A stretch of 64,000 nt of DNA from the NCBI GenBank assembly GCA_021018815.1, contig JAITYX010000078.1, positions 2,170,001 through 2,234,000 of the forward strand, given 5' to 3'. A model generated the notes under the pieces. The model made no database searches. It had not been told where the DNA came from and saw only the letters and a program-made list of their open reading frames with translations. The stretch comes from Talinum fruticosum (taxonomy: Eukaryota; Streptophyta; Magnoliopsida; Caryophyllales; Talinaceae). Below, one piece after another: positions 16,867 through 57,632 of this stretch (position 1 is its first letter; the number at the start of each line of letters is the position of its first letter). A program made the position numbers and the translations under genes.

Positions 16867-18082
16867 TGATGTATAGTGGGAGGCGGAAGCAAAAGGAAGC
16901 AAAACCGTGAACAAGCAGCCTGGCCAGAACAGGACCTGCAGGCGCGGCTCTGGGGAAAACGGTGAAAGGAGGGGCAAATGATCTTCGATTTGGACGAAAT
17001 TTGGTGGAGGGTGAGTTAACTGATTGGGAAAGGTTGTGGTAAAATTTGGGAATTTTTGGATAAGGGGAACCCCTGATCAACAAGCCTAAAGTTGACAGTA
17101 CCCGGCTGGATGAACAGATTGATACCCTTTGTTTGGTTTGGGTGTGGAGGGCGGAGTTCTTCTTGGTATAAGCTGAAATGTGGTGGAGATGGTCTCAACT
17201 CATGTATGATGAAGTGTGTGAAATTTGGGAAATAGATGATTCGTGGATTGGGAGATATGATTGATGGAAGTCGCTGGATAGAACCTGGATTCTGGCTTGG
17301 ATACAGAAACACCACCAAGCTGAACCAAGGGGCTCTTTGCAATCTGACCGGATACAGAAACACCACCGGGGATTGTAAAGAATCAAAGGACACCACCAAG
17401 CTTGCCAAGGCTTGGACACAACAATGAGAATTCAAGGGGTTGAGAAATCCATCTCAAAAGAGCAAAGCTCAAAGTTCATATATTCATCAAGGTTAATTTT
17501 ACATGAGCTAAGCTAGCTGAATTTGTAATCAACAAAAATAACATTTAGCTATGCTGAAAATTAAATCTAAAATGCTAAAGATGCTTTCCTCTCCAAGTTA
17601 GTGAGGATGAATTTCGGCCAAGCAATTTGAGATTTAGGAACATGTGGTTGTGGCTTGTTTCCCCTTTGGCAAGCTTTGCTCTCATTGCTCCAACACATCA
17701 TATTCCAAGAGGCTTCTAGAAGGTCTTCAATGTTCTCCTTTGATGCATCATTTTGGGCATCTAAACAAGGCCATTTGAACCCTTGGACCGTCCTTGATTA
17801 TTTATGTTCAACAACATAAAATGGTAGCTTCTCACGGTTTTAACAAGGCCGATTTCATCATGCTTTAACATGGAGGTGTTTGTCTTGATTCTCCTTGACT
17901 AGTCTCCTTGCGTATTTATTTATGAACATTAAGTCATAAAAAGGTCACACTCTTGGCTCTCTATCCTCCGGGATCAAAAATAATTAAGACAAATTCAAGT
18001 ACTTTTGGTTGAGTCCCGGTATGCTTGATCCTTCAAAATGAATAGCTTTCAGCCCAAAGTCTAAGGTAGTCCACTTTCCATC
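16867..18082 (-). mobile_element. Solo LTR in element M, target duplication GGAAA
   Basis: A 1216-bp minus-oriented LTR is flanked by GGAAA at 16862-16866 and 18083-18087. The first base of its sense start is missing (GATGG instead of TGATGG). Its U5 part resembles the solo LTR at 52806, while its U3 part resembles that of 6040-7305. Confidence 0.9.
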
Positions 18083-19255: not shown

Positions 19256-20519
19256 TGATGCGTAGTGAGGGCGGAAGCAAGAAAAGAAGGAAAACCGCAA
19301 GAAAGACTACCCGGCCAGAATATGACCTGCAGGCGCAATCTTGGGAGAATGGGTGAAAGGAGGGACAAACGGATGAATTTGAAGCTGAAATTTGGTATGG
19401 AGCTTCTCAACTAATTGAAGAAGCTCTGGTATTTTTTGGGATTTTTGATCACCGGGAACACCTTGATCAAAGGTCTGAAAGTCGGGGTTCTAGGCTGACT
19501 GTCCGGGATGATATCCTTTGTATATATCGAAGGTGGGGGTCGGGATACTGCTTGGATGGAGGCGATTTTTGGGGGAAAGAAGTGGACTCGCTGGGCTGGA
19601 GGTGGAGAAGTTTGAAGTGAAATGGATAAGTGGTTTGTGAGATATAGAAATGGAAAGTGAAGGGATAAAACCGAGGTTATCTCTAGGATACGAAACACCA
19701 CCTAGAAACAACCAAGGGGCACCTCTCGCCTTGCCGGATACGGAAAAACCATCGGTAGGTTTTGAGGACTCAATGAACACCACCAAGTAGCCAACTTGGA
19801 TACAACAATTGAGATTCAAAAGGGAAGAGCAATCCAGCTCAAGTTTGTCATTCATATAATAATCAAGCTTGTCTTTACAATGCCATTACAAGCTGAATTT
19901 ATAAGTAATGCAAATAGCTCTTAACTAAGCTGAAAATTAAAACAAAAATAACAAAGATGCTTTTCCTCCTCTCCAAGTTAGAGTTGGATGAATCCTAGCC
20001 AAGTATTTTGGAATTGGGAACATGTGGCCACGGCTACCTTTCCCCTTTGGCAAGCTTCTTCCTCTTCTTGTTCAACAAGCCATCTTTCTTTCACTATGGT
20101 TAGTGCTTCTAGAATACTCCTCATTAGGCTTCATTGGATGCTTCATTTCTGGCCAAAGCTCATTGCAAGGAATTATGGACCGACCATAATTAATCACTTA
20201 TTTATTTATGTGCAATGGACATGAAATAGTAGCACTTCTCGGTTTAACATGGTTGGACTCATCTTTGCTTCAACGTGGAGAATTAGGCGGTTAGCTTGAC
20301 TTCTTCTTGGCTAACCTTCTTAGCTTCTTAGATAAATATTTATTTATGAACATAAAGTCATAAAAGGTCAAACTCTTGACTCCCTATCCTCTCGGGATCA
20401 AATTGTACCATGTGAATGGTCATAGGATTTTAAAGTATCTTCGGTTGATTCCGGGCATGCTTGACCCTTCAAGATGAATAACTTTCAGCTCATAATCTAG
20501 GGCAGCCCACTCTCCATCA
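19256..20519 (-). repeat. 5' LTR of element M
   Basis: It pairs with 13083-14333. Module stems are TCTAGG (19682) with CCTAGA (19701), and CCAAGT/ACTTGG near 19785-19800. ATAGG at 20520 is the target duplication. Confidence 0.92.
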
Positions 20520-23156: not shown

Positions 23157-24411
23157 TGATGTATAGTGAGGGTGAAAACAAAAAGAAGGGCAAAAGCGCA
23201 AAGAGGGTCTGCTGGACGTGAATGTGGCCTGCAGGTGCGATCCTGGGAGAATGGATTAAAGAGGGGGCAAATGGGGGAGTTCTGAGCTGAAATTTGGTAG
23301 AAGGCTTCTTAACTGGACCAAGAATGACTGGTAAAACTTGGGGAATTTTATGAGGATGGGAACACCTTGATTTACAAGCTGAAAGTCGGCAGTTTTGGAC
23401 TGGCCGCCCGAATTATACTCTCGCATGGATCGAAGGTGGGGGACAGAGGAGTTCTTGGATGGAGCTGTTTTTTTGGGGGGGATAAGTAGACACCACTGGA
23501 ATGGAGGTGGACGAAATTTGGGATGAAGTTGATGAGTGAGCTGGGAGATATGGAATTTTGAAAACGTAGTAACCAATAGGTCAAGGATTTCACGAGATAC
23601 GTAAACACCACTATGAAACGCCTTGGGGCACCTCTTGCTTGGCTAGATACAGAAATACAACTAGCTAGCTTGAGGACTCAATAGAACACCACCAAGTTGC
23701 CACACATGGATACAACAATTGAGGATTTTAAAGGGGAGAGCAATCCAGCTCAAGTTCATTCATATATTCATCAAAAGTTGTCTTTTACATGGCTCATACA
23801 AGCTGAATTTATAATGCTCAAAAATAAAATACTTGACAAGCTAAAACAAAAGCTAAAATAAAAAATAAGCTTTCCCCTTTCCCAAGCTAGGTGAGGGTGA
23901 ATTTCGGCCAAGCATTTGTGGAGCTTGGAACATGTGGATGTGAGGCTTTTCCCCTTGTGCAACCCTTCTTCTCATTCACTTAATATTCCAAGATGTTTCT
24001 AGAATGCCTCCATTTCCCTCCTTAATTGCTTCCATTTAGGCGCCTAAATAAAGTCCATTCGGACCCTTGGACCGACCATGATGTTATTTATGTATCAATG
24101 TCATAAAAATAAGAGTTCTTCTCGGTTGATCATATTGGACTACCCTTTGTATCATGCGGACTTAAAATGGAAGAATTAGGTGGCTAGCTTGGACCTTCTT
24201 GACTATCCTTTTTGGCTCCTTAGATAAACATTTATTTATGAACATAAGGTCATAAAAAATGATACTCTCGGCTTCTCATCCCTCGGGATCAACTTGTATC
24301 ATGTGAGTGATCATAGGAAATTCAAGTGTCCTCGGTTGATTCCCGTGTATGCTTAACCCTTCAAGATGAGTATCCTTTGGCCCATAGTCTATGGCAACCC
24401 AATATCCATCA
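23157..24411 (-). repeat. 5' LTR of element B
   Basis: A 1255-bp LTR runs from TGATGTATAG (23157) to CCATCA (24411) on the plus strand. A module stem GCTAG/CTAGC lies near 23642-23666. B entered the gag of element C; CTTTT would be one copy of its target duplication, but the partner was lost at the 12562 junction. Confidence 0.88.
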
Positions 24412-24972: not shown

Positions 24973-26016
24973 TGATGTGCCAAAACGCAAGGCTACACCG
25001 ATCCTGCAAACAGAGTGCGCAAAATGCAATTCCGAGAGACTAAGAATGGACTTAGAAATGACCAATGGAACAAGTAAACAACAAGGACTAAGCTAATCAC
25101 TTGTGAGGAGATGATTAGCAAGGTAACCAGCACCGATAGGACAAGAACAAGACAAACTAGAGCTATCCAAGGATACGAGATATCACCACCAAAGATAAAA
25201 CTAGGGCACTAATCACACTTAGTGATACAACTATCCCCACACTAAGTATAATCGGACTCTTCAGAACACAGCCCAATTATGCCACTAATTAGACAAGCAA
25301 AAGAGAATTTTGGGGTTGAAAGGAGCACGACTCAACTTTACTTAGCATACAGCCAATATCAAAATCATCATCCTCTACAAAGAGAGAGCCCATGTATATT
25401 TATAGGCCTCTTAGCTAGATTACATCACTCTAATCTAAGGGTTATAAATCCCCTTTACAATCAATGGTTGTGATGTATTCAGCAAAATAAAAGGACAAAA
25501 ACAAGGACAAAAGGTTAATAAATACAGTAGAAAAAGAACAGCGAGAAAGGAGGGGGACCATAGAATCAGTAGTACAAAGTAGTACGGTTACGAGTCCAGT
25601 GACAGCCTACAATCGTTGTCACCAAATTCTTTTGCTTTCGATCCTTAACTTTCCCTTTCGGCTCTGCTGAAGACGCCTAGATGATGATCAAGTAGATTAC
25701 AATGCGGTCTAAGCTCGAAGCGAGGACTCGGAAAAGATCATTTGACTTCGAGCTCGAAGGCGAGGACTCGAGAAAAGATCTCTTGGCTTATTTTCCTCCA
25801 AATACTTCGACTTGTCCGACTCCCTTACTCCTGTCCGAGGAGACAGACAAGTATTTCGAGTGTGGCCAAAACTCCCTTGATGCTCGTGTTATCAACGATG
25901 ACCCAGCAATGGTTTACGAGGGCTCAGTAGTAAATTATAAGGACTCAGAATTATCAATCTGTTCCGGCTGGCTATCGGTATTAGTTGGGGTTGGGTTTGT
26001 GGCGTCCTCCCCATCG
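24973..26016 (-). mobile_element. Solo LTR of the E family in element C, target duplication GAATG
   Basis: A 1044-bp minus-oriented LTR matches 35454-36507. It is flanked by GAATG at 24968-24972 and 26017-26021. Its outer base at 26016 is changed (CCCCATCG). It keeps the TATA region that E's own 5' LTR lost. The hairpin CTTAGTG/CACTAAG is present near 25220-25250. Confidence 0.92.
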
Positions 26017-27333: not shown

Positions 27334-28588
27334 TGATGGAAAGTGGACTACCCTGGAATATGAGCTGAAAGATATTCATCTTAAAGAGCCAAGCATGTTT
27401 AAGGATCAACCGAAATTACTCGAATTTGTTCTAATTATTTTTGATCCTGGAAAATGAGCAACCGAAAAGGAGGTCTTTTATGAGTTCATGTTCATAAATA
27501 AAAGCTCAACCAAGGAGCCAAGGAGGATAGGCAAGTAGTTTGAAGCTAGGCGCATAATTCTCCATGTTAGAGCAAGGTACATTTCGGCCATGACAAACCG
27601 TGAAGCAAGGTGTCTTTGCACATAAATAATTCGTATTTGATTCTGGTCGGTCCAAGGTCAAATACAACATGCCTAGGCGTCTAAGGGGAGCATACAAAGA
27701 AGCCCACATGAGAGCATTCTAGAAATATTACCAAATGAGGCTTGTTAAACAAGAGTGAAGGAGGCTTGGCAAAGGGAAACAAACCGTGGCCACATGTTCC
27801 CTAAACCATCAAATACTTGGCTGAAATTTCTCCTAGCTTAACTTGGAGGAGAGGAAAGAATCTCTATGATTTTTATTATCATTTTGTTTTAATTTTCAGC
27901 TTGTAAAATGCCATTGTTAGGCATTATATATTCATCTAGCATAGCTCTTGTAAAAAATTAACCTTGATGAATATATGAATTTGAGCTTTGCTCCTTTTGA
28001 GATGGATTTCTCAACCCCTTGAATTCTCATTGCTGTATCTGAGCCTTGGCAAGCTTGGTGGTGTCCTTTGAGTCCTTACAATCCCTGGTGGTGTTTCTGT
28101 ATCTGTCCAGATTGCAAGGTGCCCCTCGGTTCAGCTTGGTGGTGTTTCGGTATCCAGGCCAGAACCCAGGATTTATCCAGCGACTTCATCAACCCATATC
28201 TCCCAATCCACCGCTCATCTCCTTCCCAAATTTCACCCACATCATCATACACAAGTTGAGTCCATTCCCTCCAAATCTCAGCTCAATCCAAGAAGAACTC
28301 CATCCCCAGCACCAAAAACAAACAAAGAACCTCAATCTGGACAGCCGCCCAGCGAGGCTTTCTGTTTGCCTTTGGTTCAAGGTGATCCCGACCTTGGATG
28401 CTGCCCAAATTTTACCGCAACCTTCCCCAACCAGTTAACTAACCCTCCACCAAATTTCGTCCAAAAACTCCATCATTTGCCCCTCCTTTCACCCTTTTCC
28501 CCAGAACCGCACCTGCAGGTCCTATTCTGGCCAGCTTGGTTTTCTTGCGGTTTTGCTTCATCTTTGCTTCCGCTCCCACCATACATCA
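27334..28588 (+). mobile_element. Solo LTR in pol of element D, target duplication AAAAC
   Basis: A 1255-bp plus-oriented LTR (TGATGGAAAG...ATACATCA) lies between GTTCAAAAC and AAACCAAGAAC. The duplication is AAAC (27330-27333, 28589-28592), or AAAAC if the terminal A is shared. Removing it restores VLGFEHLKSLYSNDEDFGEL of D. Confidence 0.9.
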
Positions 28589-36085: not shown

Positions 36086-36235
36086 CATGGGCTCTCTCTT
36101 TGTAGAGGATGATGATTTTGATATTGGCTATATGCTAAGTAAAGTTGAGCAGATGCTCATTTCAATCCCAAAATTCTCTTTTGCTTGTCTAATTAGTGGC
36201 ATAATTAGGTCTGTGTTCTAAAGAGTCCGATTATA

Positions 36236-36264
36236 CTTAGTGTGGTGATAGCTGTATCACTAAG
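36236..36264 (+). other. Hairpin module 1 of the E LTR
   Basis: CTTAGTG pairs perfectly with CACTAAG around the 15-base loop TGGTGATAGCTGTAT. The same loop with other stems occurs in every LTR family in the window. Confidence 0.8.
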
Positions 36265-36512
36265 TGTGGTTAGTGCCCTAGTTTTATCCTTGGTGGTGAT
36301 ATCCGTATCCTTGGATAGTTCTAGTTTATCTTGTTCCTGTCCTATCGGTGTTGGTCGCCTTGCTAATCATCTCCTCACGAGTGATTAGCTTAGTCCTTGT
36401 TGTTTATTGTTCCATTGGTCATTTCTAAGTCCATTATGAGCCTCTTAGAATTGCACTTGGCGCACTCTGTTTACGGGATCGGTGTAGCCTTACATTTTGG
36501 CACATCAATAAT

Positions 36513-37219: not shown

Positions 37220-38741
37220 TGATGTATAATTCAAGCTCTGATACCAAAGTTGATATATAGCTGGGGTAGATGGCTAAAGAGGGTAGAAACGAGGTTAAGA
37301 TGCAAAGAAGAGAAACCGGGCAAAATGGCTTTCTCCGAGTGCATTCTTGGGAGAACGAGGTGATAGAGGGGTAAATGGTGGAGTTTGTAGGTGCAATTTG
37401 GAGGGAAGGCTCTTGGGGAGGTTAGGAAGGGATGGTAAAAAGTGGGGGATCATTCGAGGTCGGGATCACCTCGAACTAGGGGTAAATAGAATGTCTCACT
37501 GGGTGGAAGTCCAGGTTGACAGGTCTTGATTGTTTTGGAGGAGGGGTCAGAATTCGACTTGGATGGAGCTGAAATTTGGAGGTGGAATTCTTGAGGGAGT
37601 TGGAAAGAGGTGGTAAATAGTGGGGATTCATTCAAGGTCGGGATCACCTCGAACTAATGGCTAAAAGTCTGTCTCGCTAAGCGGCGTCTAGAATGATAGG
37701 ATTTGGGTGTTTTGATGGAGGGGTCGGACGGGTGCTCGGATTGAGCTGCGATTTCAGGGGGTGACTCAACTCGTCCAGAGAGGTATGGGTGCAATTTGGA
37801 GTGCAGCTGATTTGTGGATTGGGAGATATGGATTTTTGAAGTTGGGTAACCGAGATAGTACCAAGGTTCTTAAGAATACGAAACACCACCTTTCAAAGTC
37901 TTGGGGCACCTTTCACTTGGCTACATACGAAACACCACTAGCTAAGCTCAAGGACTCAAAAGATCACCACCAAGTTGCCAAACTTGGATACAGCATTTGA
38001 GGATTCAAAGGGGAATGAGTACACAACTCAAATTCTCATTTCATATTCGTCAAAAGTTGTTTTTACAAAGCTGAATACATTGAGTATTTATAGGGAATAA
38101 AAGCATGCTAAAAATAACCTAAAGCTTAAAGCAAAAAGATAATCAAAGGCCTAAATTAAGCTTCCCTTCTCAAAGCCAAGATGGGTGGCCGGATGTGAAG
38201 ATGCATTCTTGGCCAAGCTTTGAGGCTCCTAGGAAACATGTGGTAGTAAATGCATAGTTCATTTTCAGCCAAGTATTCTTGGCCCCTTGCACAAGATAGC
38301 TCCTCATTGGTCCAACACATGCTCTCTTCCACAAAGGATAGTGCTTGGGAATTCCTCTAGAGTCTTCTCTGGGGCAGCCACGAATTTCCAGCCTTGGTGA
38401 CTGATTTTGAAGGACCGAACAAGGTCATTTTGGTCCGGGCAGATTTGTGCATTGATTTTCGGTTTTAAACCGAATTGGACTCTTTGATAATTTTGGACTT
38501 CCCTTTGTGGCGTATAATGCTTCACTCCTTAAGCAACATTTATTTATGTACCAATTGTCATAGAATGACTATTTTCATGGCCCTTAAAATCTCTTCAGAC
38601 CTTGGCTCGGTTTGCACTACTTTGGCTAGCATAAGAGTTTTTGGTGTAAAATTGATCTTCAAATAAGCTTGACTCCTTTTATGCCTTAGCTTGAGAACCC
38701 CTTGACTTTTGAACATTTGACTTGGATGGAAATATCCATCA
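37220..38741 (-). repeat. 3' LTR of element F, ending in an extra PBS-bearing unit
   Basis: The plus strand starts TGATGTATAATTC, then CTCTGATACCAAAG (reverse of a tRNA-iMet PBS), then a second edge TGATATATAGC at 37251. So the LTR itself carries one LTR-end/PBS unit. It ends CCATCA at 38741, followed by the purine run (AAGGGGAGAC in sense). Confidence 0.87.
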
Positions 38742-40757: not shown

Positions 40758-42008
40758 TGATGTGTAGTGGCGGAAGCAAAGAAAAAGATGGAAAAACCGC
40801 AAAACACACAACCGGGCAGAACAGGACCTGCAGGTGCGGTTCTGGGGAAAAAGGTGAAAGGAGGGGTAAATGATGGAGTTTTTGGACGAAATTTGGTGGA
40901 AGGTTAGTTAACTGGTTGGGGAAGGTTGTGGTAAAATTTGGGCAGCATCCAAGGTCGGGATCACCTTGAGCCAAACGCAAACAGAAAGCCTCGCTGGGTG
41001 GCTGTCCAGAATGGGGTTCTTTGTTTGTTTTTGGTGCTGGGGATGGAGTTCTTCTTGGATTGAGCTGAGATTTGGAGGGAATGGACTCAACTCATGTAAG
41101 ATGAAGTGTATGAAATTTGGGAAAGAGATGATTCGTGGATTGGGAGATATGGTTGATGGAAGTCGCTGGATAGAACCTGGATTCTGGCTTGGATACAGAA
41201 ACACCACCAAGCTGAATCAAGGGGCGCTCTCAAACGGTCCGGATACAGAAACACCACCGGGGTTTGGGAGACTCAAAGGACACCACCTAGATGCCAACCT
41301 AGGATACAGCTTTGAGGATTTAGAGGCTCGAGAAATCCATCCCGAAAAAGAGTATAACACTCAAGGTTTGTATATTCATCAAAAAGTGTCTTTACGATGA
41401 AGCATATGAGCTGAATTTATAATGCCTAGCCTTGGCATTGTACATAACCGAAAACCATGCTGAAAATAATGCAAAAATGAAAATGAAACTAATTAGATTC
41501 TTTCCCCTCCTCCAAGCTAAGCTAGAGTAAATCCTAGCCAAGTATTACAAAATTGGGAACATGTGGCCATGCTTGTTTTCCCCTTCTTCAAGCTTCTTGA
41601 TTCTTTGATGCTTTGATGCCTCTAGAATGCCTTCGTCACTCTCCTTCCTTGTTGCTCCATATCCGGTCATGGTCCATCTCATGTCAATATGGACCGTCCT
41701 CAATTAAGCATCATCTTATTTATGTACTTAAGCATAAAGTGGCAATGTTCCTCGGTTTGACTTGACCATGCATACTTGCTTTGCCTTGGAGGTTTGTTGG
41801 TGGCTAGCTTCAACTATCCTTCTTGGCTAAATTAATAACCAATTATTTATGAACATAAAGACATAAAATAACACACCCTTGGCTTTGCATCCTCCCGGAT
41901 CAAAAATAATTAAAACAAATTCATGCCCTTTTGTTGATTCCGGGCATGCTAGCTTCCTTAGAATGAATATCTTTCAGCTCAAAATGTGGGGCTGTCCACT
42001 CTCCATCA
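40758..42008 (-). mobile_element. Solo LTR in element F, target duplication GCTTG
   Basis: A 1251-bp minus-oriented LTR is flanked by GCTTG at 40753-40757 and 42009-42013. Its U5 is nearly the same as the solo LTR at 14685, while its U3 is closer to the 42886 element, so it is mosaic. Confidence 0.93.
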
Positions 42009-42885: not shown

Positions 42886-44168
42886 TGATGGAGAGTGGGC
42901 AGCGTCCTGTTTTGAGCTGTGTGACATTCATGTTAAGAAGCTTTGTATGTTTAGTGTTCAGCCGGAAATGCTTGCTTACTCCATGATCAAGGGGAAGGGC
43001 TCAAAATACAAGCGCATGATGCTAGTGGATCCCGGAGGATGATGAGTCCGGATCATTAAGTTCTTATGATTTTGTTTATAAATAATTGAGTACCAATTTA
43101 GTTGAGAAGATTAGTGAACGTAGTCACCTAAAATCTCCATGGTCAAGCAAGAAGGTTTGTTCTAGTCAAGGCCGAGAATGTTGCTATGTTATGCTCAAGG
43201 TACATAAATAAGTTGGTGCTTATTATGGTCGGTCCATATTTACTAATGGGAGACCTTAGCCGAATGATGGACAACAAAGGAAGATGATGACAAAGCATTC
43301 TAGAAGCATCAAGAATCAAGGAGCTTGGAGAAGGGGAAAACAAGCCATAGCCACATGTTCCCAATTTTGGAATACTTGGCTAGAATTCACCCTAGCTTGG
43401 CTTGGAGGGAGGGAAAGGAATATTGTTAGTTAGCATTTTATTTTTGCTTTATTTTCAGCTTGAATTCGGTTATGCTTTTCAGCTTGAATTTGGTTTTGTA
43501 AAATGCCAAGGCAAGGCATTATATATTCAGCTCATGTGCTTCATTGTAAAACACCTTTGATGAATATATTTGAGTTTAAACTCTTGAGCTGGATTGCTCG
43601 TTTTTGAATCCTCAAAGCTGTATCCGTGCTTAGCATCACGGTGGTGTTCTTTGAGTCTCTTGAGTCCCGGTGGTGTTGCTGTATCCGGACCACTTAAGAG
43701 CGCCCCTTGATTCACTCGGTGGTGTTGCTGTATCCGAGCCCGAGTCAAGGTTCTATCCCTCACTTTGCCGCCTCATATCTCACAATCTACCCAGCCATTT
43801 CACTCCAAATTTTAACCACAATCCGTCCAGTCCATCTACTATCATTCCTCCAATTTTCAGCTCCATCCAAGAAACCCTCCGTCCTCCACCCTTGATCCAA
43901 ACAGAAGGTGTCAGCCTGAACATCCAGTCCAGTGCTGCTCATTTCAGGCGTGCAGATCAAGGACTTCCCCAACTCCAAAATTTCCCAAATTTTACCACAA
44001 TCAACCTTCACCTGTTACCTTCCTTCCCACCAATTTTTAGCTAAATCCAAGAACCTTTGCCCCTCCATTTCCCCAATCTGCCAAGATTGCGCACGCAGGC
44101 TGCATTCTGGCCGGTTGTGCTTCTTGCGGTTTTCTCTACTTTTTCTTTGCTTCCGCCACTACACATCA
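42886..44168 (+). repeat. 5' LTR of the gag-protease element
   Basis: It runs TGATGGAGAG...ACACATCA, 1283 bp. TATA-like CATTATATATTCAG lies near 43518. Three modules follow: CCGTG/CACGG (43624-43641), CCGG/CCGG (43667-43688) and CTCGG/CCGAG (43715-43738), the last two with loop TGGTGTTGCTGTAT. Confidence 0.95.
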
Positions 44169-44171
44169 TTT

Positions 44172-44190
44172 TTGGTATCAGAGCAAGTTC
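44172..44190 (+). other. Primer-binding site of the gag-protease element
   Basis: TTGGTATCAGAGCAAGTTC, a full tRNA-iMet complement, starts four bases after the LTR. Confidence 0.92.
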
Positions 44191-44267
44191 TGAACCTAGG
44201 GTGATTGTGTCCATTCCCACAAAAAAATCAAATCCAAAAAAATAGCCAGCCACAAAATTGCCTAGCC

Positions 44268-45248
44268 ATGAGTGCAAGTATGACACTAGAAGAGAGGTTT
44301 GAAATGCTCATGAAGGAGAATGAGTACCTCCGAAAACAACTTAGGCGTGACATGAAGGCTAAGCGTGACCAGCTAAGGAGTGAATCACCTCCTATTCGCT
44401 CTAATCCTAGCCTACATGAAGATGATGAGGAGAGCAATCCTTTTGCCTCCACGGATAGTGAAAGACAATCAAGAAGGAGTTCTAGACGGTCCAAATCTCA
44501 CTACCAAGATTTCAAAGTTGAGATTCCGGAATTTGAAGGAAGATTGCATCCGGATGAGTTCCTTGATTGGTTGAGGACCGTGGAAAGAATTTTTGATTAC
44601 AAGGAGGTACCAAACGAGAAGAAGGTGAAGCTTGTTGCACTCAAGCTTAGAGGCTTTGCTTCCACTTGGTGGGAAAATTTGAAGCACAAACGTGTGAGAG
44701 ACAAAAAGCCTAAAATCAAAAGTTGGGAGAAAATGAGAGCTAAGCTCAAAGCTCGTTTTCTACCACCTACTTATGTCCAAGATAGCTTTCTCCAACTCTA
44801 TACTCTTCAACAAGGCAATATGAGTGTGGAAGAATACACTAGAGAGTTTGAGAAATTGTTGATCAAATGTGATTTGCAAGAAAATGAGGACCAAACAATT
44901 GTGAGGTACTTAGGCGGTTTGGATGCTAAGTATGCTCAAATTGTGGAGCTACAACATTTTACCACATTTGATGAGGTGTGTCATTTGGCACACAAAGTGG
45001 AGCAACAAAAGAAAAACCGGCTTGTCAAAAAAGAAGTGCCAAAAATCTTTCCCTCTCAAAGAAGCCAACCTTTCTACAAGGGGAGTCCCCAACCTTCACC
45101 ACAAACAATTCCAAATCCCACAAAACAGCCCATGCCCATCCAAACCCCAAAGCCGCCTAATCCAATGCAAAAACAAATGACCCAAGGAGATGCTTCAAGT
45201 GTCACGGTTTTGGACACATTGTTTCGAAGTGTCCCAACCAAAGGGTGA
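44268..45248 (+). CDS. gag, gag-protease element
   Basis: ATG 44268 starts MSASMTLEERFEMLMKENE, matching the gag starts of B, D and J. The frame stays open for 327 codons. A coiled-coil-like start and an acidic, serine-rich region lead to the gag core (VEIPEFEGRLHPDEFLDWL, KLRGFASTWWENL, MSVEEYTREFEKLL, IVRYLGGLDAKYAQIV). This is the most intact gag in the window. One frameshift near 45100-45185 moves the CCHC knuckle to the next frame. Gag would build the particle, which must be filled with RT and integrase from another element. Confidence 0.92.
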   Translation: MSASMTLEERFEMLMKENEYLRKQLRRDMKAKRDQLRSESPPIRSNPSLHEDDEESNPFASTDSERQSRRSSRRSKSHYQDFKVEIPEFEGRLHPDEFLDWLRTVERIFDYKEVPNEKKVKLVALKLRGFASTWWENLKHKRVRDKKPKIKSWEKMRAKLKARFLPPTYVQDSFLQLYTLQQGNMSVEEYTREFEKLLIKCDLQENEDQTIVRYLGGLDAKYAQIVELQHFTTFDEVCHLAHKVEQQKKNRLVKKEVPKIFPSQRSQPFYKGSPQPSPQTIPNPTKQPMPIQTPKPPNPMQKQMTQGDASSVTVLDTLFRSVPTKG

Positions 45249-46129
45249 TTACTTTGGTTGAATACCAAGAGCCCTTGATGGATGAGCATGAAACCGAGAA
45301 GGAGCTACTCTTGCTAGATGAGGTAGAGGAAGTGGTAGAAGAGGCGGATGAAGGAGAAATGTTGGTGATAAGAAGGACCTTGAGCGGTTTCAAGGATCCA
45401 AGCGAGGAGCAACGTGAAACCATTTTTCACACAAGGGGCACGGTCCAAAACAAAGTGTGTTCCATTATCATTGATGGAGGTAGTTGTGCTAATGTGGCTG
45501 CCACAACAATGGTAGACAAGCTTGGACTTCATGCTTCGGTCCATCCTCACCCATATAATGTTCAATGGCTCAACCAAGGTAAAGGACTTCAAGTTAATTC
45601 TCGTTGTCTTCTTTCATTTAGTATTGGTAAGCACTATCATGATGAGTTGTGGTGTGATGTAATTCCTATGGATGCTTGCCATATATTACTTGGGAGACCT
45701 TGGCTATATGACCGAAGGGTGACACATGATGGTTTCAAGAATACCTACACCTTCACCAAGGATGGAAAGAAAATCACATTAGCCCCCTTGCCTCCTAGCC
45801 AATACAAACCGAAGCCACAAAACTCTTCCTCCCAAAATGACCTTTTGTTTGTACTCAAGGAACCTCTCCTCAAAGACAAGCAAAAAGAGTTTGAGCCTTA
45901 CTACAAACACATCCGTTCATTCCCATACTCAGCCGAGGAGTTGCCACAAAAATTCCAACCTCTTTCCACCATTTTTCATGACAAGTTCAGCTTTGTTCCC
46001 CCACATAAAATTCCTTTCCATTCACCACCACAAAGACATTTCCTAAGCCAAAAATCCTTGTCCCAAGAGCCATTTGTTTTACCCGGACAGAGTATGATTT
46101 GGATCCCAATGGTGATGATTTATGGGTAG
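45185..46129 (+). CDS. CCHC knuckle and protease, gag-protease element
   Basis: In this frame the knuckle CFKCHGFGHIVSKC (45191-45232) is complete. An acidic linker (DEVEEVVEEADEGEML) leads to the protease motif CSIIIDGGSCANVAATT near 45460-45510, then WCDVIPMDACHILLGRPWL and KKITLAPLPPSQ. About 100 residues follow that have no match to RT. The frame ends at 46129 near a frame change. Relative to full elements everything after the protease linker is replaced. Confidence 0.9.
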   Translation, partial: RRCFKCHGFGHIVSKCPNQRVITLVEYQEPLMDEHETEKELLLLDEVEEVVEEADEGEMLVIRRTLSGFKDPSEEQRETIFHTRGTVQNKVCSIIIDGGSCANVAATTMVDKLGLHASVHPHPYNVQWLNQGKGLQVNSRCLLSFSIGKHYHDELWCDVIPMDACHILLGRPWLYDRRVTHDGFKNTYTFTKDGKKITLAPLPPSQYKPKPQNSSSQNDLLFVLKEPLLKDKQKEFEPYYKHIRSFPYSAEELPQKFQPLSTIFHDKFSFVPPHKIPFHSPPQRHFLSQKSLSQEPFVLPGQSMIWIPMVMIYG

Positions 46130-46572
46130 TCGACCGGGAAGAGCAAACAGAAAATCCATGGGCAGAATTAATACCAAAGGAAGTTGTGTATCTTCCTCAA
46201 TGTTTGCGGTTTGATGTGCCTAATGAGGACAGAGGCAGCCCCTACATCATGAGCATACTCGGAGAACATCCGGGCTGGCTGCATGGGCGGGGCTTGTCTC
46301 CACAATTAACCGTCTGCTCGGGCATACAAGGAAACTCCATTTTTGTTCTCAACATAAGCTCCAACTTGGTCAGATTTTTTCACACCGGAGCATGTTATTT
46401 GTGCGAATTTGAGGGCAAATTCTCTCCTACAAGGGAGAATGATGGAGAGTGGGCAGCGTCCTGTTTTGAGCTGTGTGACATTCATGTTAAGAAGCTTTGT
46501 ATGTTTAGTGTTCAGCCGGAAATGCTTGCTTACTCCATGATCAAGGGAAGGGCTCAAAATACAAGCGCATGA
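46099..46572 (+). CDS. Tail ORF of unknown origin running into the 3' LTR
   Basis: This 157-codon frame overlaps the end of the protease frame. It encodes DPNGDDLWVVDREEQTENPW, IPKEVVYLPQCLRFDVP and FEGKFSPTRENDGEWA. I do not recognise its first 100 residues. EGKFSPTRENDGEW spans the polypurine tract and corresponds to the integrase-end position of full elements. The last 43 codons lie inside the 3' LTR. It may be a captured sequence; no match can be named. Confidence 0.5.
   Translation: MDPNGDDLWVVDREEQTENPWAELIPKEVVYLPQCLRFDVPNEDRGSPYIMSILGEHPGWLHGRGLSPQLTVCSGIQGNSIFVLNISSNLVRFFHTGACYLCEFEGKFSPTRENDGEWAASCFELCDIHVKKLCMFSVQPEMLAYSMIKGRAQNTSA
46431..46439 (+). other. Polypurine tract of the gag-protease element
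   Basis: AAGGGAGAA sits directly before the 3' LTR start TGATGGAG. It would prime plus-strand DNA synthesis. Confidence 0.85.
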
Positions 46573-47673
46573 TGCTAGTGGATCCCGGAGGATGATGAGT
46601 CCGGATCATTAAGTTCTTATGATTTTGTTTATAAATAATTGAGTACCAATTTAGTTGAGAAGATTAGTGAACGTAGTCACCTAAAATCTCCATGGTCAAG
46701 CAAGAAGGTTTGTTCTAGTCAAGGCCGAGAATGTTGCTATGTTATGCTCAAGGTACATAAATAAGTTGGTGCTTATTATGGTCGGTCCATATTTACTAAT
46801 GGGAGACCTTAGCCGAATGATGGACAACAAAGGAAGATGATGACAAAGCATTCTAGAAGCATCAAGAATCAAGGAGCTTGGAGAAGGGGAAAACAAGCCA
46901 TAGCCACATGTTCCCAATTTTGGAATACTTGGCTAGAATTCACCCTAGCTTGGCTTGGAGGGAGGGAAAGGAATATTGTTAGTTAGCATTTTATTTTTGC
47001 TTTATTTTCAGCTTGAATTCGGTTATGCTTTTCAGCTTGAATTTGGTTTTGTAAAATGCCAAGGCAAGGCATTATATATTCAGCTCATGTGCTTCATTGT
47101 AAAACACCTTTGATGAATATATTTGAGTTTAAACTCTTGAGCTGGATTGCTCGTTTTTGAATCCTCAAAGCTGTATCCGTGCTTGGCATCACGGTGGTGT
47201 TCTTTGAGTCTCTTGAGTCCCGGTGGTGTTGCTCGTATCCGAGCCCGAGTCGAGGTTCTATCCCTCACTTTGCCGCCTCATATCTCACAATCTACCCAGC
47301 CATTTCACTCCAAATTTTAACCACAATCCTTCCAGTCCATCTACTATTATTCCTCCAATTTTCAGCTCCATCCAAGAAACCCTCCGTCCTCCACCCTTGA
47401 TCCAAACAGAAGGTGTCAGCCTGAACATCCAGTCCAGTGCTGCTCATTTCAGGCGTGCAGATCAAGGACTTCCCTAACTCCAAAATTTCCCAGATTTTAC
47501 CACAATCAACCTTCACCTGTTACCTTCCTTCCCACCAATTTTTAGCTAAATCCAAGAACCTTTGCCCCTCCATTTCCCCAATCTGCCAAGATTGCGCACG
47601 CAGGCTGCATTCCGGCCGGTTGTGCTTCTTGCGGTTTTCTCTACTTTTTCTTTGCTTCCGCCACTACACATCA
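46440..47673 (+). repeat. 3' LTR of the gag-protease element
   Basis: 1234 bp, nearly identical to the 5' LTR. It lacks 49 bp near 47235: one hairpin module was lost by a deletion between the repeated TGGTGTTGCTGTAT loops. Confidence 0.95.
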
Positions 47674-47831: not shown

Positions 47832-49326
47832 TGATGTATAATTCAAGCTATGATACCAAAGTTGATGTATAGCTGGGGTAAATGGCTAAAGAGGGTAGAA
47901 AGGAGGTTAAGATGCAAAGAAGAGAAACCGGGCAGAATGGCTTTCTCCGAGTGCAATCTTGGGAGAACGAGGTGATGGAGGATTAAATGGTGGAGTTTGG
48001 AGGTGAAATTTGGAGGGAAGGCTCTTGGGAAGGTTAGGAAGGGATGGTAAAAGCGGGGATCCAGGTTGACAAAATGTCTCGCTAGGTGGAAGTCCGAGCT
48101 GACGGGTCTTGGTTGTTTTGGAGGAGGGGTCAGAATACGGCTTGGATGGAGCTGAAATTCGGAGGGGAGCTCATGAGGGAGTTGGGATGAGGTGGTAAAA
48201 AGTGGGGATTCATTCGAGGTCGGGATCACCTCGAACTAATGGCTAAAAGTCTGTCTCGCTAAGTAGGTGTCCGGAATGACAGGATTTGGGTGTTTTGATG
48301 GAGGGGTCAGACGGGTACTTGGATTGAGTTGAGATTTGAGAGGGGATGACTCAACTTGTCCAGAGAGGTGTTGGTGAAATTTGGAGTGGAATTAATTTGT
48401 GGATTGGGAGATATGGATTTTTGAAGTTGGGTAACCGGATAGGTTAAGGTTCTCAAGTATACGAAACACCACCTTGAAAAGTCTTAGGGCACCTTTCACT
48501 TGGCTAGATACGTGAAACACCACTAGCAAGCTCAAGGACTCAAAAGATAACCACAAAGTTGCCAAACTTGGATACAACATTTGAGGATTCAAAGGGGAAC
48601 GAGCACACAGCTCAAATTCTAATTTCATATTCGTCAAAAGTTGTTTTTACAAAGCTGAATACATTGAGTATTTATAGGGAATAAAAGCATGCCGAAAATA
48701 AACTAAAGCTTAAAGCAAAAAGATAATCAAAGGCCTAAATTAAGCTTCCCCTTCTCCAAGCCAAGATGGGTGGCCGGATGTGAAGATGCATTCTTGGCCA
48801 AGCTCCGAGGCTCCTAGGGAACATATGGTGGTAAATGCATAGTTCATTTTCAGCCAAGTATTCCTCGCCCCTTGCACAATATAGCTCCTCATTGGTCCAA
48901 CACATGCTCTCTTCCACAAAGGATAGTGCTTGGGAATTCCTCTAGAGTTTTCTCTGGGGCAGCCACGAATTTCCAGCCTTGGTGACTGATTTTGAAGGAC
49001 CAAACATGGTCATTTTGGTCCGAACAGATTTGTGCATTGATGTTCGGTTTTAAACCGAATTGGACTCTTTGATAATTTTGGACTTCCCTTTGTGGCGTAT
49101 AATGCTTCACCCCTTAAGCAACATTTATTTATGTACCAATTGTCATAGAATGACAATTTTCATGGCCCTTAAAATCTCTTCAAACCTTGGCTCGGTTTGC
49201 ACTACTTTGGCGAGCATAGGAGTTTTTGGTGTAAAATTTATCTTCAAATAAACTTGACTCCTTTTATGCCTTAGCTTGAGAACCCCTTGACTTTTGGACG
49301 TTTGACTTGGATGGAAATATCAATCA
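47832..49326 (-). repeat. 5' LTR of element F
   Basis: It pairs with 37220-38741 over its full length. Its edge unit (TGATGTATAATTC...GATACCAAAG, then TGATGTATAGC at 47863) is also in the 3' LTR. The outer U3 end is TGATTGATATTTCC in sense. Confidence 0.88.
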
Positions 49327-50104: not shown

Positions 50105-51132
50105 TGATGTATAGTGAGGGCAATGAGCAAAAATAAAGAACAAGCACAAACAAGAGAAACCGGGCAGAATATGCCCCTTAGGTGTGGTCTTGGGAGAACG
50201 GGGTGATGGAGGGGTAAATGGATGAATTTGGAGATGAAATTTGAGGGGGAACTCTTGAACGAGTTAGGAAAGGCTGGTAAAAAGTGGGGGATGATTTGAG
50301 GTTGGGATCACCTTGAACCTTTGATAAAAAGACTGTCGTGCTGGGCGGTCATCCGAATGAGGTCCTTTGTTTGTTTTCGAGGAGGGGGCCGGAGTTTAGC
50401 TCGGATTGACCTGAAATCTGAAAGGGGGGTAATTAGACACGTAGAAGAATAGGTGGGTGAAATTTGGGATGGAGGAGGTTCATATTTTGGGAGATATGGA
50501 TTTTTAAGTTGGATAACTAGATAGGCTAAGGCTTCCAAGGTTACGAAATCACCACCTTGAAAATCTTAGCGCACCAAAAACCTAGCTAGATACAGACAAC
50601 ACCACTAGCAAGATTTATGGACTCATAAGATCACCACCAAGTTGCCAAACTTGGATAAAGCATTTGAGGATTTTAAGGGGAAGAGCAATTCCAGCTTAAT
50701 GTTCATTCAATATTCAAAGATAGTTTGTACATGGCCGAATACAAGCTATTTGTAATGCTCAATTAACAATAACATAATCTAAGGCTAAAATAAGATCAAA
50801 GGCCTAGATCATGCTACCCCTTCTCCAAGTTACAATGGATGGCCGGATGTGAACAAGTAAATCTCGACCAAGCATTCTTCACCCCTTGTGCAAGCCATTT
50901 CCCCATTGGTCCAACAAACAAGATTCCTTCCACTAAGAGTAGTGCTTGAAGATTCTTCTAGAATTCTTCCTTTGTTGCTCCATTTCAGTTAAGGCCTCTT
51001 CGGATGGGATATTTGGACCGCCCTTGATTAATAAACTTCAACCTTTATTTATGTACCACATGACATAAAACAAGTAACACTTCATGGCCCTTCATAACTG
51101 GTCTCACCTTGCACCATATGGACTACCCATCA
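50105..51132 (-). repeat. 5' LTR of element D
   Basis: A 1028-bp LTR from TGATGTATAG (50105) to CCCATCA (51132). Module stems GCTAG/CTAGC near 50580-50605 and CAAGG/CCTTG near 50540-50560. It adjoins the U5 end and PBS of G, so D probably inserted within the last 25 bases of G's LTR. Confidence 0.8.
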
Positions 51133-52259: not shown

Positions 52260-52805
52260 CGATGTATAGCCAAAGTAAGAAATCGAGAGAGGGGAGAATG
52301 ATGTATAGCCAAGCGAGGAGCCGAGAGAGGGTGAGAAAGTGTTGTGGACGGTAGAGGAAAAGAGCGACTCGCTGAGTGCTAAATGAACAAAGTAGTAAGG
52401 ATAAAACCAAGGCCCTTAAGGATATAGAAGCACCATCTTAAGAATCTTGGGGCACCGAAGGCTAAGCTAGATACGAGATAATCACCACTAGCAAAGACCT
52501 TTGGACTCAATCGGACACCACTAAGCGGCCAAACTTAGATATAGCAATTGAGAATTTAAGGGGCAAAAGAGCAGTATCAAGCTCGGTTTTCATTCAATCA
52601 AAGTTGTAACAAGTAGTATAAATAATGCTAGGAGAGTATGTACAAGATCAAAGGCGTAGATTACACCATAGCTTACCCCTTCTCCAAGTTGGTTTTTGGG
52701 AACATGTGGCTGGAATTGAATAGTGATTCTCGGCCAAGTATTACTTGCCCCTTGCTCAAGCTTGATTGTGATTGGTCCAACACAAGATTCTTCCACTATA
52801 GTTAG
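52260..52805 (-). repeat. 3' LTR of element H, part 1, with a duplicated 39-bp edge
   Basis: The LTR edge GATGTATAGCCAA occurs at 52261 and again at 52299, with the purine run GAGAGAGGGGAGAA between them. The LTR continues to GTTAG (52801-52805), one copy of the target duplication of the solo LTR. Confidence 0.72.
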
Positions 52806-54061
52806 TGATGTGTAGTGGGAGGCGGAAGCAAAAAGGAAGCAAAACCGTGAACAAGCAGCCTGGCCGAACAGGACCTGCAGGCGCAGCTCGGGGAAAAGGG
52901 TGAAAAGAGGGGCAAATGATCTTGGATTTGGACGAAATTTGGTAGAGGGTGAGCTAACTGGTTGGGGAAGGTTGTGGCAAAATTTGGGAATTTTTGGATA
53001 AGGGGAACACCCTGATCAACAAGCCTGAAGTTGACAGTACCCGGCTGGATGAACAGATTGATACCCTTTGTTTGGTTTTAATGTGGAGGGCGGAGAAGTT
53101 CTTGGATGCAGCTGAAATTTGAAGGAATGGAAGTGGATGGACTGGAAAGAAGGTGGTTAAAATTTGGATAAAAATGGCTAAGTAGATTGTGAGTTATGGG
53201 ATGGAAAAGTCGCTGGATAGTACATTGACCCGAGCTCGGATACGTAAACACCACCGAGTGAATCAAGGGGCGCACCTAAGCGATCCGGATACAGCAACAC
53301 CACCGGGACTTAAGTGACTCAAAGGACACCACCGTGATGCCAAGCACGGATACAGCTTTGAGGATTCAAAGGGTTGAGAAATCCATCTCAAAAGAGCAAA
53401 GCTCAAATTCATATATTCATCAAAAGTGTCTTTACAATGAGCATGATGGCTGAATATATAATGCCTAGTAATGGCATTTACAAAACTGAAAACAAAGCTA
53501 AAATTAAAGCTAAAATGAAACAAAAACCATAAAGATTCTTTCCCCTCCTCCAAGCTAAGCTAGGAGAAATTCTAGCCAAGTATTTGAAAATTGGGAACAT
53601 GTGGTCTTGCTTTGTTTGCCCCTTTGCCAAGCTTCCTTCTAACCAACTCCCACTAAGGTGAGTGCTTCTAGAATTCTCCTTCATGTGTGTCATTGGCTGC
53701 TGGATATTAGGTGCTTGACTTCGGCCATGTTGACCCTTGGACCGACCCTCTTGATTATTTATGAATAAGGTAAAAATAGTAACACTTGAAGCAAGTCATG
53801 GCCGGACTTCTCTTTGCCTTAACATGGAGGGATTTAGGTAGTTAGCTTATATCTTCTCTAACTTGAGTCCATCGATAAGCAATTTATTTATAAACAAGAT
53901 CATAAGAAATTGATGTCCATGAATCTTCAACCTCCGGGACTCAAATGAAATATGAGAAATATGATTGACACCATGGATATTCCCGGTTCTTCCTTGATCA
54001 TGCAAAGCTCATTAGGATGGACATCTTTCAACTCAAACATAGGGCTGGCCACTCTCCATCA
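52806..54061 (-). mobile_element. Solo LTR in the H LTR, target duplication GTTAG
   Basis: A 1256-bp minus-oriented LTR is flanked by GTTAG at 52801-52805 and 54062-54066. Its U5 resembles the solo LTR at 16867. Its U3 (53880-53960) resembles the start of the window, 1-150. Confidence 0.93.
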
Positions 54062-54654: not shown

Positions 54655-55827
54655 CGTCCAAGAGTCAAGGGGTTTCTCAAGTTGAAGCATAAAAGGAGTC
54701 AAGCCTATTTTACACCAAAAACTCCTATGCTAGTTCAAAAGTGCAAGCCAAGCCAAGGATGGAAGAGATTGTTAAAGGCCTTGAGAATTGTCATTCAAAG
54801 ACAATTAACACATAAATAAATGTTGCCAAACGAGTAAAGCAAGATATGCATAAAAGACGGTCCAAAAATACCTAAAGGGTATTTTAGGCACATTTTGTTC
54901 ATGCTGAATTTTATGGCCGAAAATGTCATGCTTGGTCAAGAGTCAATGGCCGGACCTTCAAGGCTCAAGGAGAATTCCGAAGCATCAAGAATTGAGAAGA
55001 TTGGGAAAGGGGAAAACAAGCCACATCCACATGTTCCCAATCTTGCAAATACTTGGCTAGAATTCATCCTAACTTAACTTGGAGGAGAGGAAAGAATCTT
55101 GTGGTTTTTGTTTTGATTTTGGTTTAATTTTTAGCTAAGTTTCAGCTTTGTAAAGGGCCAATGTGAGGCATTATATTCAGCTAGCATAGCTCATGTAATA
55201 CAACCTTGATGAATATATGAACTTTGAGCTTTGCTCTTTTGAGATGGATCTCTCAACCTCTTGAATTCTCATTGCTGTATCCGAGCCTTGGCAAACTTGG
55301 TGGTGTCCTTTGAGTCCTTACAATCCTGGTGATGTTTCCGTATCCAGCCAGATTGCAAGGAGCCCCTCGGTTCAGCTTGGTGGTGTTTCACGTATCCAGG
55401 CCGGAACCCAGGATTTATCCAGCGACTTTCCACCCCCATATCTCCTAATCCACAAATCATCTCCTTCCCAAATTTCACCCACATCATCATACACAAGTTG
55501 AGACCATTCCCACCAAATCTAAGCTCAATCCAAGAAGAACTCCATCCCCAGCACCAAAAACAAACAAAGAACCTCATTCTGGACAGCCACCCAGCGTGAC
55601 CTTCTGTTTGCCTTTGGTTCAAGGTGATCCCGACCTTGGATGCTGCCAAATTTTACCACAACCTTCCCTAACCAGTTAACTAACCCTCCACAAAATTTCG
55701 TCCAAAAACTCCATCATTTGCCCCTCCTTTCACCCTTTTCCCCGAACCGCACTCGCAGGTCTTATTCGGCCAGCTTGCTTGTTTGCGATTTCTCTCTTCT
55801 TTTTGCTTCCGCTCCCACTATACATCA
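54655..55827 (+). repeat. Chimeric LTR in integrase of H, truncated start
   Basis: Positions 54655-54900 match the U3 of F-type LTRs (AAGTCAAGGGG, GACGGTCCAAA). From about 55000 it matches the solo LTR at 27334, to the end CACTATACATCA. The LTR start and about 190 bp of flanking integrase are gone at the left, so no target duplication remains. It is either a true recombinant LTR or two fused pieces. Confidence 0.72.
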
Positions 55828-56550: not shown

Positions 56551-57632
56551 CGATGGAGAGCTGCTAGCAATGCTTCGAGGAGAACTAAACTGGACACCTA
56601 AAACTTCCATTTTAGTCCATTTGGTGTGCAATGAATCCGGGCATGTTGAGGCGTGAAGTGCGCCCATTTTATGTCATTTGAACATAAATAAAGTTGTCCT
56701 TATATCAAGCTCGGTCCAAGGTCCAAAGAGTTCATGTTTGAAAGCCTAATGAAGCATCAAAGGAAGCATTCTAGAGGAATCTTCAAGCACTACCCTTAGT
56801 GGAAGGAATCTTGCTTGTTGGACCAATGAGAAGATGGCTTGCACAAGGGGGAGAAGAATGTTTGGCTGAGATTTACTGTTCAAATCCGGCCACCCATTTT
56901 AACTTGGAGAAGGGGTAGCTTGATCTAGGCCTTTGATCTTATTTTTGCCTTAGATTATGTTATTGTTAATTGACCATTACAAATAGCTTGTATTGGGCCA
57001 TGTACAAACTATCTTTGAATATTGAATGAACATTGAGTTGGAATTGATCTTCCCTTAAAATCCTCAAATGCTTTATCCAAGTTTGGCAACTTTGTGGTGA
57101 TCTTTTGAGTCCATAAATCTTGCTAGTGGTGTTGCTGTATCTAGCTAGGGTTTTGGTGCCCTAAGATTTTCAAGGTGGTGATTTCTGTATCCTTGGAAGT
57201 CTTAGCCTATCCGGTTACCCAACTTCAAAAATCCATATCTCCCAAAATACGAACCTCCTCCATCCCAAATTTCATCCACCTGTTCTTCTACGTGTGTAGT
57301 TACCCCAGCCCTCTCAGATTTTAGGTCAATCCGAGCTAAACTCTGGCCCCTCCTCAGAAACAAACAAAGGAGCCCATTCCGGACGTCCGCCCAACGTGAC
57401 AGCTCTTTCCGTCAAAAGTTCACTATGATCCCAACCTCAAATAACCCCCACTTTTTACCAGCCCCTCCTAACTCGTTCAAGAGTTCCCCCCCAAAATTTC
57501 ATCTCCAAATTTATCCATTTACCCCTCCATCACCCCGTTCTCCCAAGACCGCAAATAAGAGGCCCATTCTCGCCTGGTTACTCCTATTTGTGCTTGTTCC
57601 GTATTTTTGCTTTTTGCTCTCACTATACATCA
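56551..57632 (+). repeat. 5' LTR of element J
   Basis: It starts CGATGGAGAGC (first base changed from T) and ends ACTATACATCA before a PBS. Modules: GCTAG/CTAGC (57122-57145, loop TGGTGTTGCTGTAT) and CAAGG/CCTTG (57171-57195, loop TGGTGATTTCTGTAT). It is the plus-strand counterpart of D's LTR. Confidence 0.87.

Follow-up and report, generated by a model that had tools for sequence, protein, structure and literature searches.

The nest of retrotransposons in this part of the Talinum fruticosum genome raises the question of whether the hairpins in its LTR leaders are an RNA structure maintained by selection and, if so, what reads them. An initial annotation had proposed that a loop of fixed sequence sits on covarying stems in every LTR family, and that it may serve as a packaging, dimerisation or translation signal. 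In what follows, the window is the whole stretch of 64,000 nucleotides, and R1 is a covariance model of the leader block, which, run on the window and 28 other loci of the same genome with an E limit of 0.01, matches at 107 places.

The elements and their leader block

The LTRs of the window, each about 1.25 kb long, are related and nested on both strands; they start with TGATGG and finish with CATCA. In several copies TGGTATCAGAGC or a near form of it follows 3-4 nt past the LTR and marks the PBS, which we take to be complementary to tRNA-Met, an assignment that agrees with the CRM description; the CR-motif of the elements is likewise assumed to resemble that of the CRM clade. Coding pieces with Retrotrans_gag, Ty3_capsid, RVT_1, RNase H, integrase and SH3_Tf2-1 domains are those of Ty3/gypsy, and in one copy the frame containing TSSLQGEDDGEWAALDYELKV runs over the start of LTR 14333(-), with a stop further upstream in that copy. 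One element of the window, at 42886..47673 (+), was checked for a target-site duplication and is flanked on either side by AAATG. Passages of PMC3059260 give TGATG/CATCA termini, a tRNA-Met PBS and a 5-bp duplication as features of the CRM clade, and a coding region that extends into the 3' LTR as a feature of its group A; in termini, PBS, duplication and frame, the present elements are alike. Their LTRs of 1,283 and 1,234 bp are slightly longer than the 299-1,225 bp reported in that source, a survey range rather than a criterion. Judged by these traits, the elements are Ty3/gypsy with features of the CRM (centromeric) clade.

The element at 42886..47673 has LTRs at 42886-44168 and 46440-47673, a PBS from 44173 and an internal part of only 2,271 bp. 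A domain scan places a Gag open frame (Retrotrans_gag, Ty3_capsid) at 44205..45248 (+), an overlapping frame at 45161-46129 contains a CCHC zinc knuckle, CFKCHGFGHIVSKC, and a scan of three frames found no RT or integrase domain. Among Gag homologues, which include plant proteins, the best match is a Cuscuta campestris protein, with 55% identity over 54% of the query. The 5' LTR of this pol-less element retains the leader block, as had been claimed for non-autonomous elements.

When 24 leaders are compared side by side, they resolve into three hairpins in series, H1-H2-H3, spanning about 150 nt downstream of a TATA-like box. In H1 an internal loop, with CUGUAU on its 5' strand and UGGUG on its 3' strand, separates the outer from the inner stem, and the apical loop has UGGC in most copies. 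In H2 and H3 the two stems are separated by an asymmetric bulge, and the inner one closes a loop of the form GUGGUG...UAUC. The two core strands are the same throughout; in H1 they form an internal loop and their order is reversed. One module is thus used three times, once inverted. The second form described in the initial annotation, with a stem between TGTAT and TGGTG, is real and corresponds to H1, the two core strands being joined the other way round; of the two to three modules ascribed to each LTR, three is the number in a complete leader. Among 29 sequences examined, the diverged families retain the layout and differ in their stems, and three weak matches (window 1784, L040:9754 and L031:1799) hold only part of it.

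The reference block, in the 5' LTR of the pol-less element, lies at 43608..43757 (+; R1 147.1 bits). Its H1 (43611..43655) has the outer stem CUCAAAG/CUUUGAG, the internal loop CUGUAU/UGGUGUU and the inner stem CCGUG/CACGG; H2 (43657..43700) pairs CUCUUGAGU/ACUUAAGAG and CCGG/CCGG, and H3 (43705..43750) pairs CCUUGAUUC/GAGUCAAGG and CUCGG/CCGAG. The copy with the 36236 stem of the initial annotation has its block at 36174..36330 (+; 87.8 bits), where sequence and MFE fold give H1 at 36176..36225 (outer CUCUUU/AAAGAG, inner CUAAUUA/UAAUUAG, an apical loop with GUGGCA) and H3 at 36278..36324 (loop UGGUGAUAUCCGUAU, outer stem CUAG/CUAG, inner stem AUCC/GGAU plus GG/CC with two U.U mismatches between), and scan and MFE fold give H2 at 36229..36271, a 14-pair stem, G.U included, around UGGUGAUAGCUGUAU. 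The block at 25151..25307 (-; 81.7 bits) belongs to the same family, and in both copies the inverted H1 core has diverged.

Twenty-six R1 matches fall inside the window. Besides those already named, plus-strand blocks lie at 628..781 (145.9 bits), 5546..5700 (115.6), 6739..6893 (146.3), 11439..11594 (146.1), 28023..28177 (134.1), 55265..55419 (137.2), 57061..57211 (132.5) and 59896..60050 (134.3). On the minus strand they lie at 15096..15248 (154.9, inside LTR 14685-15917(-)), 17277..17431 (137.3), 19664..19815 (124.4), 23575..23725 (122.2), 37854..38003 (127.1), 41169..41319 (154.1), 48438..48587 (115.3), 50520..50670 (129.6), 52400..52554 (118.4), 53216..53365 (141.9) and 61441..61595 (141.5), together with 2002..2152 (75.5), which has a CUUAUC-type core, and 13492..13630 (92.9), which has a deletion in H3. 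The claim that the module occurs in every LTR family does not hold literally. At 1784..1930 (+; 37.4 bits) and at L040:9754-9897(+) the H2/H3 loops are of another kind, the H1 core of the 36174 and 25151 copies has diverged as described, and at 47161..47262 (+; 68.1 bits), the 3' LTR copy of element 42886-47673, a deletion between the loops has fused H2 with H3. The two LTRs of that element consequently differ in module number; at 1784-1930 and L040:9754-9897 the inverted H1 module is retained and different hairpins occupy the places of H2 and H3.

Several features of the surrounding leader allow the block to be placed in the transcript. A TATA-like box lies 70-103 nt upstream of the block in 20/23 leaders (a loose pattern, counted without a chance control), in agreement with the earlier placing of the modules downstream of a TATA box, and from it the transcript would start about 40-70 nt before H1. 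Many copies have a TGATGAATATATGAA-like stretch after the TATA-like box and upstream of H1, which suggests that the poly(A) site, and with it the end of R, comes before the hairpins; if so, the block is most likely the first part of U5. The PBS, where found, mostly lies 555-606 nt past the block start, the block end being about 400 nt upstream of it. A conserved RNA structure is therefore present between the promoter and the coding region, given a transcript start set by the TATA-like box. In a profile of nine diverged copies, with gaps scored as differences, conservation within the LTR is highest in the block: its 20-base bins show pairwise identities of 0.56-0.76 at offsets 0-119 and of 0.49 at offsets 120 and 140, and the other bins range over 0.01-0.54.

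Two further pairings were seen in the leaders. In most copies a GGC in the H1 apical loop is complementary to a GCC in the H2-H3 spacer; the reference copy (H1 43611-43655, spacer 43701-43704) has AGC. This pairing is nearly invariant, and a fourth pair matches in 21/34 copies scored, a scoring in which one copy lacks a core match and L024, L041_7977 and L043_6951 are located wrongly or loosely. At L027:7238 the fourth pair is altered on both sides (GGCU/AGCC for GGCA/UGCC). The H1 loop and the spacer could possibly form a pseudoknot over H2. In addition, 20/23 leaders have a small hairpin of the form GAG(C/U)...(G/A)CUC after the TATA-like box and ahead of H1 (for example at about 43570-43600), a count made without a chance control.

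Paired change in the stems and constancy of the core

All twelve stems named in the initial annotation were located in the sequence. Nine are of the first form: CTTAGTG/CACTAAG (36236), CTTATGG/CCATAAG (5658), GCTAG/CTAGC (57122 and 59956), CAAGG/CCTTG (57171), CTCGG/CCGAG (43715), CCGG/CCGG (43667), TCTAGG/CCTAGA (19682) and AATGG/CCATT (about 2025-2050), the last two being minus-strand hairpins at 19706-19682 and 2043-2020. The other three, CCAAGTT/AACTTGG (59912), CCGTG/CACGG (43624) and CCTAG/CTAGG (about 11455), are of the second form. The further assertion, that these stems change on both sides together, was borne out against shuffles, slid partners, a tree-based background and arm swaps.

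When the structure of one leader is applied to a MAFFT alignment of 22 window leaders built from sequence alone, 82.6% of 840 cells are paired, compared with 70.4±0.8 after shuffling, and 24/39 pairs are changed on both sides, compared with 18.0±1.8. Covariation is 0.393 against 0.185±0.012 in shuffles (0/500 as high) and 0.148/0.180 when partners are slid by one, although the choice of a structure from one alignment member biases the comparison in its favour over the slid versions. The tree, swap, core and AUG counts used 35 non-redundant copies (<92% identity), drawn from 94/107 model matches. Left out of the first set were four of the 26 window matches (2002, 13492, 47161 and 1784), and of the second 13 matches: the duplicate L020, two cut by the locus end, and ten that are deleted, chimeric, weak or diverged, including window 1784, 13492 and 47161. 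These omissions favour the structure.

Against a tree-based null, the summed G of the 38 structural pairs is 331, compared with -1±30 (maximum 71) in 200 tree simulations and 3±24 (maximum 67) in 200 simulations that preserve the number and letters of the substitutions in each column. The two best-scoring column pairs out of 11,175 belong to the structure, with E of 0.01 each, and the third to eighth lie outside it, with E of 1 or more; taken singly, 3/38 structural pairs reach E<0.05 and 15/38 reach E<1. Arm swaps among one representative of each of 11 families (80% identity clusters; 20,000 permutations) give mean energies for own versus swapped arms of -10.2 versus -5.6 kcal/mol in H2, -13.3 versus -6.7 in H3, -2.7 versus -0.1 in the inner stem of H1 and -3.0 versus -1.2 in its outer stem. 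The corresponding p values are 5e-5, the permutation floor, for H1 inner, H2 and H3, and 6.5e-4 for H1 outer. The own partner is the single best in 4/11 families for H1 outer, 6/11 for H1 inner, 6/11 for H2 and 9/11 for H3.

The initial annotation implied that the stems form when folded with their flanks, and here the outcome is mixed. Folded with flanks, the helices of the 22 window leaders have mean pair probabilities of 0.18-0.64 (0.18-0.32 for H1; control 0.00), and over the 35 copies the mean MFE z-score is only -1.45, falling below -2 in 11/35. The thermodynamic support for the hairpins is thus modest, H1 being weakest, perhaps because the energy model has no knowledge of its internal loop. 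With regard to strand, G.U cells number 110 against a shuffled expectation of 159 and A.C cells 58 against 122; the difference, G.U minus A.C, is 52 against 37±6.6, a weak excess. That G.U falls less than A.C is a mild sign of the sense RNA strand. A DNA cruciform would be compatible with the covariation alone, and the G.U preference over A.C speaks mildly against it.

The core behaves quite differently from the stems. Over the 35 copies the majority letter averages 97.4% in 30 core columns versus 65.5% in the other stem columns; G-UGGUG and UAU-C are near-invariant in all of H1, H2 and H3, and each column of GUGGUG is at least 94% conserved. Two positions ahead of UAU there is a C or T in 100/101 cells, a preference before R that a putative loop register of G-C, U.U, G.A, G.U, U.R and G.Y would explain. 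In diverged families CUUAU stands in place of UGUAU. The loop form given originally, TGGTGxxxxCTGTAT, was therefore partly right: the literal TGGTGNNNNCTGTAT is found 5 times where 0.02 would be expected, and a looser scan gives many more matches on both strands, but the part that stays fixed is shorter, GUGGUG plus UAUC, and the loops span 13-17 nt (35 copies), a range that includes the 14-15 bases first described. Upright cores (TGGTG-N3..9-TAT) number 80 in the window, compared with 12.3 in shuffles and 16 in the window read backwards; 20 of them have at least five contiguous flanking pairs, where 30 dinucleotide shuffles average 0.07 and the backward reading has 1. Inverted cores (TATC-inner stem-GTGGTG) number 25, and 20 of these have an inner stem of at least five pairs; backwards, the counts are 2 and 0. 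An invariant sequence displayed three times, once inverted, on freely varying stems is what would be expected of a recognition module.

Taken together, these results leave us highly confident that the leader block is a selected RNA structure, all of the structural data coming from one genome. It has also been considered that template switching, during DNA replication or reverse transcription, could make perfect inverted repeats and so mimic compensatory change without selection. The mechanism is documented for DNA replication in passages of PMC8794818, and some stems are long and wholly different between families. However, template switching leaves the invariant core, the register between core and stem, the inverted module of H1 and the mild G.U preference unexplained, and as a full account it seems to us extremely improbable. 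It may help stems to change in pairs; it cannot fix the core.

Occurrence in the genome and in other sequences

One common loop form has 2,917 exact matches in the 620-Mb genome, and the reversed pattern has none; among the matches listed, this form lies on contig C1 (17.6 Mb), between 7.7 and 9.0 Mb. The loop form of the 36174 copy has 202 exact matches genome-wide (C1 at 3.3 Mb and 8.3-9.3 Mb, and other contigs), and the CTTATC form has 92 (C1 at 6.1-6.3, 8.3-8.9 and 13.6 Mb, and other contigs). Four further short stretches on other contigs match the covariance model, but they were picked by the core pattern and their model matches are not independent. Regularly spaced loop matches occur at C1:8949222-8963229, about 3,486 bases apart, and at C29:1690823-1734837, about 5,500 bases apart with one step missing. 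From this spacing, the two series appear to be tandem arrays of LTR-plus-internal units, satellite-like in character. One of the four short stretches, L048:1-341, is a diverged leader with four cores. The third is inverted and has 6 inner pairs; the others are upright, with 1, 5 and 3 contiguous pairs, so that two of their stems are weak. The arrangement looks like a duplicated three-hairpin block.

A pattern scan of IMG/VR gave 17 exact matches, none with a second module within the surrounding 260 bases, and these are read as chance; protein scans of viral and GTDB contigs confirmed no relative. In the open-access literature, judged from titles and abstracts, a three-hairpin leader is not described. 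The leader hairpins set the present elements apart from the CRM clade as portrayed in the main texts of PMC3059260 and PMC7010299, in which the words hairpin and secondary structure are absent.

What may read the module

An explanation that accounts for these features, and to which we give an even chance as a whole, is that of a CRM-type leader whose three hairpins display one module to be bound by Gag. In this model, the transcript would start about 40-70 nt upstream of three hairpins, each presenting the same module, 5'-GUGGUG-3' opposite 5'-(Y)(R)UAUC-3' with a G-C pair closing one side, as an apical loop in H2 and H3 and as an internal loop of reversed strand order in H1. Since the stems are free in sequence provided that they pair, they would be scaffolds displaying the module. 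Lying in U5 of the genomic RNA, the module would be the binding site for the CCHC (nucleocapsid-like) part of Gag, and its three copies would allow cooperative and specific packaging of the RNA into particles. Were recognition to depend on the core and not on the stem, a given family's Gag could package the RNA of other families and of pol-less ones.

Analogy with known systems points to packaging by Gag as the main role of the hairpins, a proposal that we place slightly short of an even chance. Retroviral core packaging signals usually lie near or downstream of the PBS; the block, about 400 nt upstream of the PBS, is placed differently, and this counts against packaging. In passages of PMC7599994, the zinc knuckles of HIV-1 nucleocapsid bind the exposed G's of the SL2 GGUG loop; in the Psi hairpin, binding to a labile (weakly paired) G-rich stem is tighter than to the apical loop; and tight binding by MoMuLV NC requires an RNA with all three stem-loops. 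The present leader resembles HIV-1 SL2/SL3 and the three-stem-loop core signal of MoMuLV, as those passages describe them, in its hairpins with conserved G's that may be exposed or weakly paired and in the GGUG shared with the SL2 loop. It differs in using one module three times, once inverted, far upstream of the PBS and without a conserved loop palindrome. According to the same source (PMC7599994), replacement of the Psi hairpin GGAG loop affected packaging little. Loop binding alone is consequently no proof of function. Another parallel is offered by BARE1 and BARE2, which are Ty1/copia elements. In the passages of PMC3735527 that describe them, barley BARE2 makes no Gag and is nevertheless packaged, which fits its conserved dimerisation and packaging signals; the likeness lies in the packaging of a Gag-less element through cis signals, and the difference in that no such triple hairpin appears in those passages. 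The nucleocapsid/GGUG likeness, the presence of the block in a pol-less element with gag and a knuckle, and the BARE2 case make packaging the likeliest role, ahead of translation, a host protein or centromere RNA.

Of these other roles, control of translation supposes that the hairpins act on ribosomes entering the leader, by shunting, stalling or binding of a repressor. In the leaders of plant pararetroviruses, a short ORF ends just before a hairpin. Here a short upstream ORF ends no more than 8 nt before the H1 stem in 18/35 copies, and exactly 3 nt before it in 14; AUG is in excess just upstream of H1 (76 vs 39 expected at -60..0; 35 copies) and scarce within the block (24 vs 83 expected) and after it (88 vs 149; 35 (34) copies). 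Shunting in RTBV/RTSV is reported to depend on a short ORF (PMC3291615), and the long structured leader with short ORFs is common to both cases. However, the control triplets deviate as well (CAT in the block, 38 vs 71 expected; GTA, 66 vs 149 after the block and 59 vs 134 far upstream), which makes the AUG pattern weak evidence and led to the rejection of AUG depletion as proof of a translated leader. The ORF end is missing in 17/35 copies, including all six most diverged clusters, so that it is not conserved across families as the pararetroviral arrangement would have it; the copies are related, their AUG and ORF counts are not independent, and with several AUGs per copy chance agreement is likely. 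Furthermore, a shunt needs a stem and not three separate hairpins with a fixed GUGGUG/UAUC core, once inverted. We regard translation control as unlikely. Another candidate is a site for a host RNA-binding protein, which all families would exploit for the export or stability of their RNA or to be protected from silencing. A conserved core on freely varying stems suits any sequence-specific protein, and the core is common to families of diverged LTRs; Rfam has 0 matches at gathering score in the window, and this reading seems decidedly unlikely.

It has also been asked whether the transcript is held on CENH3 chromatin by its leader hairpins, which would take part in targeting or marking the centromere. 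The elements are of CRM type, and among the matches listed on the 17.6-Mb contig C1 many lie at about 7.7-9.3 Mb. In maize, according to passages of PMC7010299, CRM LTR reads are enriched in anti-CENH3 RIP, CRM2 having 15,104 LTR reads there compared with 254 in an input about half the size. However, that enrichment includes other CRM regions, in those same passages of PMC7010299; the rarer loop forms are found elsewhere on C1 as well (3.3, 6.1-6.3 and 13.6 Mb); and nothing here ties the core to a centromere protein. A centromeric role for the hairpins is thus very improbable. Two more candidates were set aside. Dimerisation through kissing loops is disfavoured, a 6-base palindrome being present in 4/35 H2, 9/35 H3 and 1/35 H1 apical loops, and a main role for the UGUA of the loops as a far-upstream poly(A) element was rejected, given that the A-rich near-upstream-like stretch lies upstream of H1 and that CUUAU can replace UGUAU.

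Under the packaging model, a wider proposition may be framed, which we consider doubtful: that centromeric retrotransposons share a packaging code in GUGGUG/YRUAUC, a new and recurrent RNA module that can be used with its strands in either order; the Gag of any family would read the core and ignore the stem, the stems would drift, and helpers would mobilise their pol-less kin in trans. A module in three copies, one inverted, that is kept while stems and LTRs diverge provides a 45-nt probe for Gag binding, and the covariance model can be used on other plant genomes. Cis-acting RNA signals of plant Ty3/gypsy elements are hardly present in the literature searched. The leader module may bear on how the RNA of centromeric elements is packaged and how these elements spread.
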